From: a virus
Reading direction: 5' to 3' (one strand)
Virus record (IMG/VR): IMGVR_UViG_3300042879_003010
Location: 1 to 36,568 of that record
Length of the DNA stretch: 36,568 bases
Part shown: in pieces, positions 18,849-30,165 of the stretch
Layout of the letters: each line of letters starts with the position of its first letter
Position numbering within the stretch: position 1 is the stretch's first letter
Program-made: the position numbers and the translations under genes
The notes under the pieces: model-generated
What the model saw: the letters and a program-made list of their open reading frames with translations, nothing else
Database searches by the model: none
Told to the model about the DNA's origin: nothing

Positions 18849-21058
18849 TGGATCACCCGCCTTGTGCCTGCCGCGCGCCCGTCAGGCCCGCGCACGATCT
18901 CCACCGGCGCCGCCATCAGCCGGGCCGCCTCCGCAATCGCCTGCGTGGCCTGGGCCATCTGCGCCGCGGCCTGCGTGGTCGCCTGCGCCGCCTCACTCGA
19001 CACCGCAGCCGCCTGCGTCACCTGCGCCGCAGCCTGCGCCAGCGGCGCAAGCGCCTCGCCCACAGCGCGCTCCGTCTCCTGCCCCAGGGACAGCGCCACT
19101 GTGGGCGCGCGCGTCTCGGCGCGCTCCGCCGCCTTCTGCGCGGCCTGCATCTCAGCAATCTGAAGCCGCACACCAAGCTCCGCCTGGTGCCGCTGCGCCT
19201 CGGCCGCAATCTCCATCTCCTTGACGCGCATCTGCACCTCGGCCTTGCCAGCCTCGATCTGCGCCCGAGACTGCAGCTCCGCCGCCTTGGCCTGCGCGTC
19301 CATCTGCGCCCGCTGCGCCTCAGCCTGCATCGCCATCTCCTCCGGAGACGGACCCTGCGGCACCCCCTGCGCCGGCGCCGGCTGCGACAGCGCCTGCATC
19401 GCGCGCTCGACCAGCTCCTCGGCCTCCTCGCCGCCGCGGAACCGCCGCACCGCCATCGTCAGCAGCCCGCCCACCATCTCCGCCATGGCACCGACCGCAT
19501 GCGGCGCCTGCATCGCCACGCCCTGCACGATCGGCATCGTACCGCTCAGGAACCCGGACACACCAGTCAGCAGCTCCGTCGCCGCCTGACGCTCAGCCAT
19601 CTCATCCGGCGCAATCGTGCTGTCCGTTTCCACGTCCACGCGGTAGGACCGCAGCGCATCCGGACCCTTGAGCAGCGCCAGCGCATCGCCCAGGTACTGC
19701 GCCTCGCTCTCAGGCAGCGCCTCGGCATTCGCCTCAGCGAAGATCGTCTCCGGCTCGAAATGCCCGCACACGACGTCCGCCATGATCTCGATCGCGTCGC
19801 GGCACCACCGCGCCACCTCCTGCTGCCGGTCGCGGACCCGGATCGAGCCCCACTGCGCCTTGATCTGCTGCGCCGTCGCCGTCTCGCTCGCAGCCGTCTG
19901 CCCGCGCAGGATGTCGGACAGCCCCGTGACCTCGTACGCGTCCCGCTTAACCGCCTCCCGGAGCTCAAGCAGCCGCGCCAGCGTCTCCGCGACCTCGTGC
20001 ACCGGCAGCCAGGCGATGGCGTCGTCCATCGGACGCCCCTGCCCTAGCGCCCAGCTGCTCACCGGCACCAGCGCGACCTCCTGGGCGCTGTCGAGGCCCT
20101 TCTGGATGTCCGCCTGCGTCTCGCCCGGCACGAAGCCAATCAGCTTGAGCGCCTTGGACAGCGCCGCGATCCGCGTCGTCAGGTCGTCAAGCTCCAGCGC
20201 CTGATCCTGGTAGTAGACAAAATCCGGCACCGGCACTGTGGACCCGGTCGTCATGGTCCCGAACATCGGCCGCGGGCACGGGAACCGCCCCCGCATCCGG
20301 AGCGGATACGGCCGCACGTCCAGCGGCTCCGGCACCGACCGATGCAGCCAGACCACCTCGCGGCGGGTCGCATCCCACACCTCGTAGACCGTGGCCTTGC
20401 CGATGACGTCGGCCTTCGCCTCGTTCGTCCCCGACGAGGTCTCCGCGGGCGCACGATCGAGCGGCACGGCCTTCGCCACGTCGCCGAACCTCTCGCGCAG
20501 CTCGTCGCGCGTCATGTAGGCGGCACGCCAGACAGCGCTCACCTCCGCCCAGGTCCGCGCGCCGGCGGTGAAGCCGAAGTCCCGCCAGTGGACCTGCTGC
20601 AGCACCGCGCGCTCGCCAGCCTCCGACGGCTCGTAGAACACCCACCCGACGCCCTGCCCGACCAGCAGATAGTCCTGCACCGCGGAGCGCGCCGCGAGGC
20701 CGAAATCCCCGCCCTTCTCGATCTGGCACGACAGCGACCTCTCGAGCAGCCGGGCCGCCACACGCCCGACCGGATCGCGATCGCGGAAGCGCCGGAACAC
20801 CCGCGGCTGGGGGTCGCGCGCGTAGACCGTCGGCGTCAGGACCTCGATATTCGCCCACAGCAGCGCGAACCGCCGCTCCGTCGTGTTGCCGTGTTCGCTC
20901 CGATAGCGCTTGGTGATCTTGTCCGCGCGCTCGGTATAGCCGTGCCGCTCGCGCTCGAACGCCTCGATCTCAGCCCGCCACCGGGACGCCAAGCCACGCG
21001 GCGGCGCGCCGAAGTCGGCCTCCGTCTCCGCCGCCGGCGCTGCACTGCCCTGGTCCAT
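18845..21058 (-). CDS. Portal protein
   Basis: 737 residues from ATG 21058; the A of its ATG is the last base of the terminase TGA stop. Portal-type signs: an N-terminal ERERHGYTERADKITKRYRSE helix, FALLWANIEVLTPTVYARDPQPRVF (about 64-88), SAVQDYLLVGQGVGWVFYEP (crown/wing), a stem-like VYYQDQALELDDLTTRIAAL near residue 282, and VKRDAYEVTGLSDILRGQT near 375. Residues about 550-715 are a long Ala/Gln/Glu helix with coiled-coil character, comparable to the P22 portal barrel. It would form the dodecameric DNA gate and dock terminase and the gp4-like adaptor. Confidence 0.85.
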   Translation of the reverse strand: MDQGSAAPAAETEADFGAPPRGLASRWRAEIEAFERERHGYTERADKITKRYRSEHGNTTERRFALLWANIEVLTPTVYARDPQPRVFRRFRDRDPVGRVAARLLERSLSCQIEKGGDFGLAARSAVQDYLLVGQGVGWVFYEPSEAGERAVLQQVHWRDFGFTAGARTWAEVSAVWRAAYMTRDELRERFGDVAKAVPLDRAPAETSSGTNEAKADVIGKATVYEVWDATRREVVWLHRSVPEPLDVRPYPLRMRGRFPCPRPMFGTMTTGSTVPVPDFVYYQDQALELDDLTTRIAALSKALKLIGFVPGETQADIQKGLDSAQEVALVPVSSWALGQGRPMDDAIAWLPVHEVAETLARLLELREAVKRDAYEVTGLSDILRGQTAASETATAQQIKAQWGSIRVRDRQQEVARWCRDAIEIMADVVCGHFEPETIFAEANAEALPESEAQYLGDALALLKGPDALRSYRVDVETDSTIAPDEMAERQAATELLTGVSGFLSGTMPIVQGVAMQAPHAVGAMAEMVGGLLTMAVRRFRGGEEAEELVERAMQALSQPAPAQGVPQGPSPEEMAMQAEAQRAQMDAQAKAAELQSRAQIEAGKAEVQMRVKEMEIAAEAQRHQAELGVRLQIAEMQAAQKAAERAETRAPTVALSLGQETERAVGEALAPLAQAAAQVTQAAAVSSEAAQATTQAAAQMAQATQAIAEAARLMAAPVEIVRGPDGRAAGTRRVIQ

Positions 21059-22861: not shown

Positions 22862-23065
22862 AGTTGCCTCCTTGAGATAGCGCGCCCGCTCCCGACCATC
22901 GTGTACACCTAGTGCCCCCGCATACACGGTGACGCGCCGCCGCGCGCTGGTTCGGGGCGATCCGCCAGGCGGGCGCAGGCCAGCGGCTGGAGATGCGGGG
23001 GCTTGGGGGAGCGCCGGACACACGTCCTGCACGTTATCCCCTCATGGAGGCTTTTCGGTCCGGTG

Positions 23066-23596
23066 TCAAGCGTCTAGCTGCCAATGCTCCACCAGTCTCT
23101 CAAGCACAGCCAGCACCGCCCCGCGCGCCACATGCCGGGACTGCGACAGGCTCGACCCGATGTCCTCCAGCGTCAGCCCGGCGATCGCCACCATGTCGGC
23201 CACCCGCCGGCCGTGACGTCCGATGGCGTCCCGCGCGCGGCGCAGCTCGTGCTCGGCGTCGATCTGCATCTCGCTCGGGCCGTACCCCTGCCCCGGCTGC
23301 CGGACCGGCGGGCGATCGGGCCGCCAGCATGCCCCGCTGGCCCGCTCCGCCAGGTCACGATAGCGGTCGGCGGCCTCGCGCTGCTCGTCTGTGATCGAGC
23401 CCTCGCGCCAGAGCCGGTGATAGCCCGGGACGCGCTGGGCACCGCGGACGGTCCTGTGGGGATCGGCGACGTCCGGGCGATCGGCGATCTCGACGTCCTG
23501 CCGCTGTGGCACGAGGCGGCCATTGGCCCAGCGAGTGGGTCCGTAGTCAGAGGCCGGCTCGGTGCTGCGGGCGGCGGTACGGCGCGGGCTGGGCAT
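23066..23596 (-). CDS. DUF6456-like regulatory or packaging-associated protein
   Basis: 176 residues from ATG 23596, with GAGAGG upstream; the longer frame runs into the repeat region and is not coding-like. The N-terminus is basic and disordered. The middle has GYHRLWREGSITDEQREAADRYR, and the C-terminal half has ARDAIGRHGRRVADMVAIAG, then LTLEDIG and a terminal helix (AVLAVLERLVEHWQ). This arrangement resembles the DUF6456 domain of alphaproteobacterial proteins as I remember it. It is the first gene after the non-coding repeat region and precedes terminase, so a role in late-gene control or packaging-site recognition is plausible. Confidence 0.55.
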   Translation of the reverse strand: MPSPRRTAARSTEPASDYGPTRWANGRLVPQRQDVEIADRPDVADPHRTVRGAQRVPGYHRLWREGSITDEQREAADRYRDLAERASGACWRPDRPPVRQPGQGYGPSEMQIDAEHELRRARDAIGRHGRRVADMVAIAGLTLEDIGSSLSQSRHVARGAVLAVLERLVEHWQLDA

Positions 23597-23770
23597 GTCG
23601 CTACCTCTCGGGCGCGGGGGATTGGGGGGGGAGGACGGGTCGCGCGCGTGATTTTTGGGGGGAGATGTGTCGGAAGGCTTGGGAAGTGTCGACGTCAAGC
23701 CGTTGATATTGCGGCTTATTCCTGCTTTCCGACACTGCCGACGCTCCGACACATCGAACAAAACTTCCCG

Positions 23771-23814
23771 ATGTGCGTGTGTGCGGGCGCGCGTGTGTAT
23801 ATATATCATTTTAT
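23771..23814. promoter_or_regulatory. Alternating purine-pyrimidine tract and AT-rich stretch
   Basis: Bases 23771-23785 and 23787-23806 alternate purine and pyrimidine without a break (GT, GC and AT steps), interrupted only at 23786. The tract ends in TATATATATCATTTTAT (23798-23814), by far the most AT-rich stretch in the region. Such DNA is prone to Z-form under supercoiling and to melting, fitting an unwinding element. For leftward transcription, TATATA or TAAAAT on the other strand could be a -10 element. Confidence 0.5.
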
Positions 23815-23886
23815 GTGTCGGAAGTGTCGGAAGGGGGGGTAGAAGGGGTTAGTGCGTTGATGTTGCTGGAAAGTTTGTTCCGACGC

Positions 23887-23936
23887 GACTCCTTGCCGGG
23901 AAGAGTCGGAGTAGTGTCGGACAGGCGAGATGAGTC
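23887..23936. promoter_or_regulatory. Three GANTC methylation sites within 50 bp
   Basis: GACTC at 23887-23891 and GAGTC at 23903-23907 and 23932-23936 match GANTC, the site methylated by CcrM in Alphaproteobacteria. Two of them overlap near-copies of the TGTCGGA repeat. GcrA binds promoters with methylated GANTC, and this phage encodes a GcrA-type protein, so this may be its target. The link is inference. Confidence 0.45.
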
Positions 23937-23948
23937 GGAGGGGCGCCA

Positions 23949-25172
23949 TTATGTCCGTGCCCACACGCGCCGTCCTGTGGCGCCGCGCCCCACTCGTCGC
24001 TGCTGCCACCCAGCGCGTCGGAGGCAGGCGACGGCGCGGAGGACGGCCTTGCGGTCCTGCCGGTCCTTGGGGATGCCCAGAGGCTCGCTGAGGATGACCG
24101 CGGTCGAGACCTCGCGGTGGTCGGCATGCTGCTGGAGCCAGTCGCCGATCGCCCCGTCCCAGGGGTCCTCGATGACGCTGTCGGCGGCGAGCCGCTCGGC
24201 CTCGTCACGCACCTCGTCCTCCAGCCAATGGGGCTGTCCCAGCGCGTCATAGGTGCAGGCCTCGGCCCAGAGCTGGTCGCGATTGGCGGCGACCCAGTCG
24301 GCGTCGGCGTGGGCGCAGGCCACGGGCCAGAAGCGGCGGTTCCCGGTATCGTCCCGGAGGTAGTCGTCCCGGTTCGAGGTCCCGATGATGACGACTTGCC
24401 GCGGTGTCTCGATGATCTGCCGGCCGTAGGGCGGGCGGTATCGGTCCACCTGCCGGGAGAGGAAGGCCTTCACGGTCTCGGGCTCGGCGCGGATCAGGTG
24501 ATCGACCTCGGCCATCTCGACGCACCACACGCCGGCGAGGGACTGGGCGGCGTCCTTGCCGCCGAGATCGGCGGGCAGGTAGTCTGTGGTCCACTCGGCG
24601 CCATGGAGGGCGCGGACGGTGCGGGACTTGCCGATGCCCTGCCCGCCGCTCAGGACGGGCATGGCGTCGTGCTTGACGCCGGGGTTGCGGACGCGGCGGA
24701 CGGCGGCGACCATGTGGCAGCGGCCCACGGCGCGGGTATAGGGCGTATCGGCGGCGCCGAAGGCGCGGATCAGCCACTGATCCACGCGCGGCAGGCCATC
24801 CCAGCGCAGGCTGTCGAGGTAGACGCGCACCGGGTGGAAGCGGTTGAGGGCGGCGACGGCGTGCATCGCGCCCTCGACCTGCGTGAGCTTGAAGCTGGCG
24901 CTCTCCTGTTCGAGATGCGCCAGGATGCAATGGACGTCGGCGGCGTCCCAGATGCGTGGGTAGGGCCCGGGCAGCGGGTCGAAGGCCGCGGAGGGCGGGG
25001 CGCGGGTGATGACGGGGCGGTTCGCCAGCTCGTCCCACGCGACGATGCCGGCGAGCGCGGGGGACTTGCCGATCAGCAGCATGGCGTTCGCGGTGGTGGC
25101 GAGGACTTGGTTCTTGTCGCCCTTGGCCAGGCCATGCCGCCATGTGGGTAGCTCGATGACGCTGGTGCTCAT
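23949..25172 (-). CDS. VirE-type P-loop ATPase (replicative helicase-like)
   Basis: 407 residues from ATG 25172, overlapping the primase stop as ATGA. Features: SLRWDGLPRVDQWL (121-134), a hallmark of virulence-associated E proteins; Walker A GGQGIGKS (176-183); a Walker B-like VWCVEMAEVD; and GTSNRDDYLRDDTGNRRFWPV with the sensor asparagine. C-terminal helices may bind DNA. Proteins of this family act with primase-polymerases as phage or island replication helicases, similar to D5/SF3 ATPases. It is the last gene of the replication operon and abuts the putative origin. Confidence 0.85.
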   Translation of the reverse strand: MSTSVIELPTWRHGLAKGDKNQVLATTANAMLLIGKSPALAGIVAWDELANRPVITRAPPSAAFDPLPGPYPRIWDAADVHCILAHLEQESASFKLTQVEGAMHAVAALNRFHPVRVYLDSLRWDGLPRVDQWLIRAFGAADTPYTRAVGRCHMVAAVRRVRNPGVKHDAMPVLSGGQGIGKSRTVRALHGAEWTTDYLPADLGGKDAAQSLAGVWCVEMAEVDHLIRAEPETVKAFLSRQVDRYRPPYGRQIIETPRQVVIIGTSNRDDYLRDDTGNRRFWPVACAHADADWVAANRDQLWAEACTYDALGQPHWLEDEVRDEAERLAADSVIEDPWDGAIGDWLQQHADHREVSTAVILSEPLGIPKDRQDRKAVLRAVACLRRAGWQQRRVGRGATGRRVWART

Positions 25173-25975
25173 GTGCGGGCCCTCATGCCGGCCTGGAGTC
25201 CGCTGCGGATGGTCGCGGCGGCCTCTGCGTGTGTCAGGCCGATGCGCTGTGCGCCGGCCATCAGGGTCTGCTCGGCCTGCTGCTCGGCGAAGCGCGCCCC
25301 GACCAGGATCCCGAGGCGGTACGCGCAGCGGTTGAGCGTGGCGTTGCGCGTGCCGGGGGCGGCGCTGACCAGGCGGTCGAATGCACGATCCACGGCCCGC
25401 TGCAGGTGAGCGTCGGAGAGGCTGGCGGGGTCGCGCAGCTCGCGCTCGGGCTCGGCGGGCGGCGAGAGGATGGAGGTCAGCCAGGCGGGCGCGATGGGCG
25501 GCGCGGTGACCCATGGCGGTGTAATCCAGCGATAGGCGGTGCCGGTGCGGTGATGGATGGTCGGCGGGACGGTGATGGAGTGCCGTCCGCGGCGCGGGTC
25601 GATGCCGGGGCGCCAGCCGGGCTGTCCGATCAGGGGGCCGGTATGGGCTTGGAACACGACGAGCCAGCCGCCGCCGCCTGTGCGGACGGTCGGGGCTGGC
25701 GGCAGGGCGCCATGGCGGGTGGTGAGCTCGCGCATGGACGCGGCGCCATCGGCGTCGGGCTTCTGGTCTACGTCGAGGGCCCAGATGCCGGAGGGGCCGC
25801 ACACGACCTGCCAGCCGCAGCCGGAATACTCGCGCGCCCATGCGGCAAGGGTGTCGAGGTCGTGTGTCGCGGCGTCGTGCGCGCCCTTGAAGGCGGCGAC
25901 GCGGCTGCGCGGGGCGCGGGGGAACAGGTGCCAGCCGAGAAGGGCGAGGCGCTCGACATCGTCCGGCAGGCTCAT
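25169..25975 (-). CDS. Bifunctional primase-polymerase (prim-pol)
   Basis: 268 residues from ATG 25975, overlapping the nuclease stop as ATGA. Prim-pol motifs: GWHLFPR (14-20), WALDVDQK with the metal-binding pair D68 and D70, VRTGGGGWLVVFQ (97-109), and GIDPRRGRHSITVPPTIH (124-141) with the conserved basic and histidine residues, followed by YRWI. The C-terminal part (about 180-268) is helical (RAVDRAFDRLVSAAPGTRNATLN), as in primases coupled to a VirE/D5 helicase. It would synthesise primers at the phage origin. No zinc-ribbon is visible. Confidence 0.85.
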   Translation of the reverse strand: MSLPDDVERLALLGWHLFPRAPRSRVAAFKGAHDAATHDLDTLAAWAREYSGCGWQVVCGPSGIWALDVDQKPDADGAASMRELTTRHGALPPAPTVRTGGGGWLVVFQAHTGPLIGQPGWRPGIDPRRGRHSITVPPTIHHRTGTAYRWITPPWVTAPPIAPAWLTSILSPPAEPERELRDPASLSDAHLQRAVDRAFDRLVSAAPGTRNATLNRCAYRLGILVGARFAEQQAEQTLMAGAQRIGLTHAEAAATIRSGLQAGMRART

Positions 25976-26286
25976 CGCAGGGCCTCGCTGAGGGCGTCGG
26001 GGTCGCGGCAGACGAGGCCGATGCCGCCGGCGGCGCGGACGGCGGCGAGGAACCGCTCCTGCTCGGGCGTCAGGCGTCCGCGTGTGGTCTTGCACTCGAC
26101 GGCGGTGAACACGGCGACGCCGTTGCGGGGTGTCCATCCGATGAGGTCGGAGGAGCCGACGTGCAGGCCGAAGCGAATGAGGCGGCCGCGGGCGTCGTGG
26201 AGTGCGCCTGTGTTGTTCCGGAATAGGGTGGCGCCGGCGCGGCTGGCGGCGACGCGCGCGGCGGCGAGGATGTCGGCCTCGGTCAT
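25972..26286 (-). CDS. VRR-NUC domain nuclease
   Basis: 104 residues from ATG 26286; upstream extension lacks coding character. The PD-(D/E)xK core is visible: GSSDLIG with D47, then VECKTTRGRLTPEQERFL with E64 and K66. This is a stand-alone VRR-NUC protein, a family linked to Holliday-junction or flap cleavage in phage recombination and replication. It lies between the DUF3987-like fragment and the primase and overlaps the latter. It may process replication intermediates and cooperate with the RecT pathway encoded on the right arm. Confidence 0.85.
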   Translation of the reverse strand: MTEADILAAARVAASRAGATLFRNNTGALHDARGRLIRFGLHVGSSDLIGWTPRNGVAVFTAVECKTTRGRLTPEQERFLAAVRAAGGIGLVCRDPDALSEALR

Positions 26287-29540: not shown

Positions 29541-29744
29541 CTACGACGCCCTCTCGAACGCCTTGGCCAGGTCCGGCCGCAGCACCCCGGCATCGATGCC
29601 GGTCGCGCGGGCCACTGCTTCCACCCGGTCTGCGGGGACGCGGTTCGCCGCCCATCGAAGGACGGTCGAATGCTTGACGCACAAGGCTCGCGCCAAGTCG
29701 GAGGCGCTCCCTCGGCGTTGCTTGAGATGATCGGCTAGGGTCAT
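29541..29744 (-). CDS. Cro/YdaS-type repressor
   Basis: 67 residues from ATG 29744. SASDLARALCVKHSTVLRWA (12-31) is an XRE-type helix-turn-helix. NRVPADRVEAVARATGI and LRPDLAKAF match the Cro/YdaS pattern in which 'RV--IE-ATG---LRPD' follows the recognition helix. It is the first gene of the leftward replication operon and lies divergently from the repressor. The start lies about 7 bp from the predicted -10, so the mRNA may have almost no leader, and no ribosome site is seen. It would bind the same TGTGCA-type operators and shut off the opposing repressor. Confidence 0.8.
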   Translation of the reverse strand: MTLADHLKQRRGSASDLARALCVKHSTVLRWAANRVPADRVEAVARATGIDAGVLRPDLAKAFERAS

Positions 29745-29751
29745 GGCGGGC

Positions 29752-29780
29752 ACTGTGCAACCACTGCACACTGTGGTCAA
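29752..29780 (-). promoter_or_regulatory. Left early promoter with overlapping operator
   Basis: On the leftward strand, TTGACC (29775-29780) and CACAGT (29752-29757) are spaced by 17 bp as -35 and -10. The palindrome TGTGCA-ACCAC-TGCACA (29754-29770) fills the spacer, so bound repressor would exclude polymerase. The architecture closely copies that of the right promoter. Confidence 0.65.
29754..29770. promoter_or_regulatory. Operator O1 (TGTGCA-N5-TGCACA)
   Basis: A perfect 6-bp inverted repeat with a 5-bp centre lying between -35 and -10 of the left promoter. The same half-site is found at three other places in the switch region. Confidence 0.75.
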
Positions 29781-29787
29781 GCGGAAA

Positions 29788-29804
29788 TGTGCAGTCATTG
29801 CAAC
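29788..29804. promoter_or_regulatory. Operator O2 (imperfect)
   Basis: TGTGCA-GTCAT-TGCAAC; the first four bases of the second arm match. It sits 7 bp upstream of the left promoter -35, and contains TTGCAA (29798-29803), a possible -35 for the repressor gene. Confidence 0.65.
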
Positions 29805-29838
29805 GACGCGGACAGACGCGGCGTGGCAGTCTCACCGT

Positions 29839-30165
29839 ATGAGCAAGGCACACCCGATACGCGAACACCTGGGCGCATGGCGCAGGCACTTCGGATGGTC
29901 TCTCACAAAGCTTGCGAACGAAATAGGAACGTCGCATTCTACCTGCCAACGACAGGAAGCAGGGAAGATTGGCGTGGACGAGACGACTTTTGCAGCAATC
30001 GCCAAGGCTTACGGGATTTCCGTGGCCGAGTTGTCGGCGTCTCTGGCCGATGCGGACCGGGCGCGCGAGCTTGGTCGGCTGCTCGACGTGGCGCGTCGGC
30101 TGGATGCGAAGGGGCTGCGGACCCTAGCGGACCTGTCGGAGCAGTTCGCCCCTCGAAAGGGCTAG
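29839..30165 (+). CDS. Short XRE-family repressor (CI-like, no peptidase domain)
   Basis: 108 residues from ATG 29839. The N-terminal HTH (LGAWRRHFGWSLTKLANEIG, then TSHSTCQRQEAGKIGVD, then FAAIAKAYGISVAEL) is a clear XRE fold at residues 10-65. The C-terminal 40 residues are helical (RELGRLLDVARRLDAKGLRT), probably for dimerisation. There is no S24/LexA-type domain, so RecA-driven self-cleavage is not expected and induction must work differently. The gene has no ribosome site of its own. It faces away from the Cro-like gene and lies between the two operator pairs. Confidence 0.8.
   Translation: MSKAHPIREHLGAWRRHFGWSLTKLANEIGTSHSTCQRQEAGKIGVDETTFAAIAKAYGISVAELSASLADADRARELGRLLDVARRLDAKGLRTLADLSEQFAPRKG

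Follow-up and report, generated by a model that had tools for sequence, protein, structure and literature searches.

The repeat array behind the vapE gene in the window, an entire virus record of 36,568 bases, is very probably a replication origin, predicted here, that is bound by the VapE-like helicase encoded beside it. In the explanation that we favour, the C-terminal winged helix of the helicase would contact the iterons, and helicase hexamers would assemble on both repeat sets; the helicase would melt the intervening DNA, which is AT-rich and has alternating purines and pyrimidines, load itself onto the melted DNA and pass the template to the neighbouring primase-polymerase. We give this explanation as a whole, from the origin and helicase binding to the handover, a probability of roughly 0.86. 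An origin at this place had been proposed in an earlier, sequence-only reading of the same DNA, and the proposal is supported by the homology of the helicase to Rep, the position and non-random makeup of the array, its recurrence in relatives, repeats that have changed in concert in a near-twin phage, and covariation in two clades of related helicases. From these computed results we infer binding in the window phage, hexamer loading, the site of melting and origin activity.

The gap, its repeats and the neighbouring helicase

The proposed origin region in its entirety (23598–23945, without strand) is defined by the enrichment of the array, by relatives and by the near-twin. It occupies a gap bounded on one side by the stop codon of vapE and on the other, the packaging side, by a DUF6456-like gene (23066–23596, minus strand). 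The latter was identified by phrog_37226 (E=2e-10) and by a Pfam DUF6456 match whose E=0.0018 falls below the curated cut-off. The gap holds no convincing gene, and matches to the DUF6456-like protein are confined to the sequence past the ATG at 23596; this agrees with the earlier description of the array as lying in gene-free DNA between a primase/VirE module and the packaging genes. The vapE gene (23949–25172, minus strand) encodes a VapE/VirE-like AAA+ helicase of 407 aa, a Rep-like initiator according to Pfam, PHROG, PDB and fold comparisons. Directly upstream of it lies the Prim-Pol gene (25169–25975, minus strand), whose start was inferred inside the ORF 25169–26137 that gave the Pfam Prim-Pol match (E=8e-25). 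The terminase genes are located approximately 1–2.5 kb from the array. Further away, a small ORF (29541–29798) has a weak match to YdaS/Cro-type regulators and adjoins an HTH gene on the opposite strand (29743–30165). No Rfam matches and no tRNA genes were detected in the window.

Exact copies of TGTCGGA are present at 23668 (+), 23728 (−), 23745 (−), 23816 (+), 23825 (+) and 23915 (+), and GTCGGA, the same word with one changed base, occurs three more times, at 23879 (−), 23905 (+) and 23934 (+); the six exact and three one-mismatch copies in both orientations that had been reported earlier were all recovered. When at most one mismatch is allowed, the heptamer is found at 10 places in a 275-bp stretch, versus at most 5 elsewhere in the window. 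Dinucleotide shuffles of the gap (n = 2000) contained a mean of 0.09 and a maximum of 2 exact copies, as compared to the six observed. Indeed, the density of the heptamer, on which the value of the earlier observation hinged, is far higher in the gap (6 copies in 348 bp) than elsewhere (8 exact copies in the remaining 36,220 bases), and the window as a whole carries 14 copies where 4.7 +/- 2.2 are expected. Another word, CTGCGCC, reaches 6–8 copies per 400 bp in a coding region (18869–19418), where it probably stems from repetitive protein sequence.

The repeat unit is better supported as a 9-bp element, GTGTCGGAA / TTCCGACAC. The first iteron, GTGTCGGAA (23667–23675, plus strand), is backed by both exact-copy and mismatch counts, and is followed by a variant, GTGTCGAC (23686–23693, plus strand), recognized from the mismatch count and from alignment to the near-twin L002, in which it is the same. 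Beyond a dyad of the form AAGCCG-9-CGGCTT (23697–23717), exact-copy counts place two iterons on the minus strand, namely GTGTCGGAA at 23727–23735, which reads TTCCGACAC on the plus strand, and GTGTCGGA at 23745–23752. They also place the tandem direct pair GTGTCGGAAGTGTCGGAA (23815–23832) and the iteron GTGTCGGAC (23914–23922) on the plus strand. Partial iterons of sequence GTCGGA, counted as mismatch copies, are found at 23879–23884 on the minus strand and at 23905–23910 and 23934–23939 on the plus strand, the last two in the context GAGTCGGAG.

At the centre of the array, a 20-bp alternating purine-pyrimidine tract, GCGCGCGTGTGTATATATAT (23784–23803; p=0.005 versus shuffles), runs into the AT-rich stretch TATATATATCATTTTAT (23798–23814), a candidate melting site that directly adjoins the tandem pair, as had been noticed from the sequence. 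The tract and the AT-rich stretch together are a candidate unwinding element. Iterons flank 23784–23814 on both sides; with this few repeats, a split by orientation of 5/6 does not exceed what chance would give.

The helicase itself matches the Pfam VapE-like_dom (E=1.2e-72), the DNA helicase family phrog_256 (E=1.5e-100) and, by sequence, PDB 7pds_A ('Similar to D. nodosus vapE'; E=1.1e-45). Its AlphaFold2 model has a pLDDT of 92.7 and, when submitted to Foldseek, gave 7pds ('PriRep1 with dsDNA') as the best match, with a TMq of 0.79. By both sequence and fold, the window helicase is a homologue of the self-loading SaPI1 Rep. The secondary structure of the model predicts a winged helix at the C-terminus (residues ~337–406). 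No DnaA box (TTWTNCACA) is present anywhere in the window, which speaks against a DnaA-dependent origin and is as expected with a self-loading initiator. GC skew, which had been suggested as a check, gave a divided answer: the cumulative curve of the window has its minimum at 23409, though the flanking genes share one direction, and in four other VapE phages the minimum does not lie at the array. Thus, we give GC skew little weight.

Arrays behind vapE in related phages

In the first five VapE relatives, an array was found past the helicase gene, either in the gap behind it or with one short gene in between (5/5), and every relative has a repeat word of its own; the array of Javan100 is degenerate, and its 7-mer test was not significant. 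For 15 of 20 helicase clusters, repeated 7-mers are in excess (p<0.02) in the 400 bp behind the VapE stop codon, as compared to 0–1 clusters of 20 when the same test is applied at offsets of -800, -400, +400 and +800. In a larger set, arrays were present behind VapE genes at 110 of 180 distinct loci versus 12 of 344 control segments. The other 70 of the 180 loci have no array within 700 bp by the same criterion, some of them carrying degenerate ones. Alternating purine-pyrimidine tracts (p<0.05) accompany 25 of 51 array loci and none of 49 control segments, and the longest of those behind vapE reach 48 bp (L100). Across 48 loci, the repeats of relatives tend to fall into two sets that face opposite ways (mean z=0.61), with 12 perfect splits. 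An origin is annotated in none of the full feature tables of four VapE phage records.

Proximity to the terminase genes, which in the window are within ~1–2.5 kb, could indicate that the repeats are a cos/pac packaging site. In Corynebacterium IME1320_01 and Streptococcus Javan100, however, the terminase genes are 4–8 kb from an array that lies behind the helicase gene, and in other VapE phages the distance is 2–8 kb, the array still following the helicase gene. In addition, where relatives by TerL have a different replication gene, this place is occupied by other words or lacks an array. We therefore rejected the packaging site, which we consider extremely improbable: the arrays of relatives follow vapE and have no comparable tie to the terminase. 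Arrays track the helicase gene, not the terminase, whatever gene lies downstream.

The same observation bears on the suggestion that a regulator uses the repeats as operators to control a late promoter, which would drive the DUF6456-like and packaging genes. The DUF6456-like and terminase genes, which are on the minus strand, do have the array immediately upstream, and dimeric regulators would suit repeats in both orientations. Nevertheless, no sigma-70-like promoter was found in 23000–25300, the array of relatives stays behind the helicase gene irrespective of what follows, and in related clades the word covaries with a C-terminal residue of the helicase. The operator reading, which had been offered as the alternative to an origin, thus retains little support, and we judge it very unlikely.

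An array is also present at this place in the close relatives compared, L002 and L003; its absence there would have counted against the earlier reading. The near-twin L002 has a TerL that is 97% identical to that of the window and a DUF6456-like protein that is 99% identical, and much of the DNA around the iterons in its gap is identical too, including the dyad at 23697–23717, although the adjoining iterons differ. Several of its aligned iterons read GGTCGACAC where the window has TTCCGACAC; the L002 contig does not include the helicase gene, so this concerted change is documented for the repeats and not for the protein. Such a change in near-identical phages could perhaps represent escape from incompatible replicons, satellites or origin-directed nucleases. 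Another close relative, L003, carries an array of yet another word at the same place. The conserved block of the window gap was found in L002 only, and a search of viral_contigs with the helicase of the window returned no close relative.

TerL relatives of the window without a recognisable vapE have other words or arrays, or no array, at this place. In L035 and L025, the arrays lie just behind an AAA_25 gene, which in L035 is fused to Prim-Pol, and this location suggests that whole replication modules are exchanged at this site. The repeats in question (L035:5739–6200 and L025:889–1257) are CGGGACA and ATCGGGG, each present eight times, within or over ORFs; a CGGGACA array is found in L029 as well.

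A wing residue and an iteron base

In two helicase clades, wing residue W+2, the second residue past the conserved wing tryptophan, pairs with iteron base -3, the third before ACA: a lysine at W+2 is accompanied by A or T, and an arginine by G. The rule, noticed in earlier comparisons, holds in 38 of 41 rows of a subsequent set and, out of sample, at 83 of 83 loci fetched later (29 with lysine and A/T, 54 with arginine and G). Exceptions lie outside the two clades (L136, L210, L240 and L531). A combined tree of 118 rows, which omits six that either sit on long branches or do not belong to the clades, including the first three of these exceptions, shows agreement throughout, and each trait changes 10 times on it. 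When well-supported branches are considered, there are 4–6 independent pairs, of which 4–5 are concordant and 0 opposed (p=0.06–0.125, short of the 0.05 level); on the combined 118-row tree, the corresponding count is 4 concordant pairs out of 4. A mutual-information scan of the entire family lacked specificity, with the residue-base pairs ranking 20 and 106 of 900. Because rows within one clade are not independent, and in view of L531 and the unspecific scan, we claim the rule for the two clades only.

In the AlphaFold2 model of the window helicase, W+2 is positioned on the first wing strand. Near-identical helicases exist whose origin word has changed along with the W+2 residue. A second pairing, between W+4 and base -1, is suggestive, the last batch having provided no clean out-of-sample case. 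A wider proposal can be formulated, to which we would give even odds: VapE-family helicases and their adjoining arrays may be widespread modular pairs of initiator and origin, found in both tailed phages and prophages, and a few wing residues (W+2, perhaps W+4) may set single iteron bases, so that the protein sequence would reveal the word. If these views are correct, the replication origin would be placed in a large class of phages, and the match between a single wing residue and a single iteron base would be a rule testable by single mutation.

Comparison with known initiator-iteron systems

Plasmid iterons often serve control besides initiation, and in phage P4 the origin and crr are separate sites. 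By analogy, the helicase-bound repeats of the window could form a control locus, for copy number, incompatibility or silencing, rather than the site where replication starts. We consider this very unlikely, since the stretch at the centre of the array, AT-rich and with purines and pyrimidines alternating, is what an origin would be expected to have, and since pri-rep-ori segments of PICIs, which have the same layout, drive replication when tested as a replicon (PMC6092414). In PICIs, an AT-rich region is flanked by two iteron sets (PMC6092414); the modules of those from Gram-negative bacteria, compared here by layout, resemble that of the window, although PICIs are satellites and the window is apparently a phage.

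The kind of origin predicted here is already known, and its breadth in tailed phages as well as the residue-base rule appear to be new; the literature search, which had most subscription papers outside its range, returned no paper on origins behind vapE in tailed phages. The closest counterpart is the SaPI Rep-ori system, whose helicase (SaPI1 Rep, 7pds) is homologous to the window VapE over nearly its whole length. The SaPI origin is reported to lie directly downstream of rep and to be made of iterons that are read by the C-terminal domain of Rep (PMC7581432), and short iterons directly behind the helicase gene are likewise found in the window. The two differ in that SaPIs are satellites, whereas the window apparently belongs to a tailed phage that carries packaging and structural genes of its own, in that its iteron word is not that of SaPI, and in that its origin is predicted.

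Cch2 of SCCmec also resembles our proposal, in that its C-terminal domain binds repeats located past the end of the gene that encodes it (PMC7581432). Unlike the window helicase, it belongs to the D5/Primase_Cterm helicase family, akin to SaPI5 Rep, and its iterons are just three, of 5 nt each. PLE RepA is set apart by its description, not being known as a VapE helicase, and its three repeats of ~30 bp are unlike the iterons of the window. Nonetheless, PLE RepA and ICP1 Odn offer a precedent for modular initiator-iteron pairs that are changeable under selection (PMC8263062).
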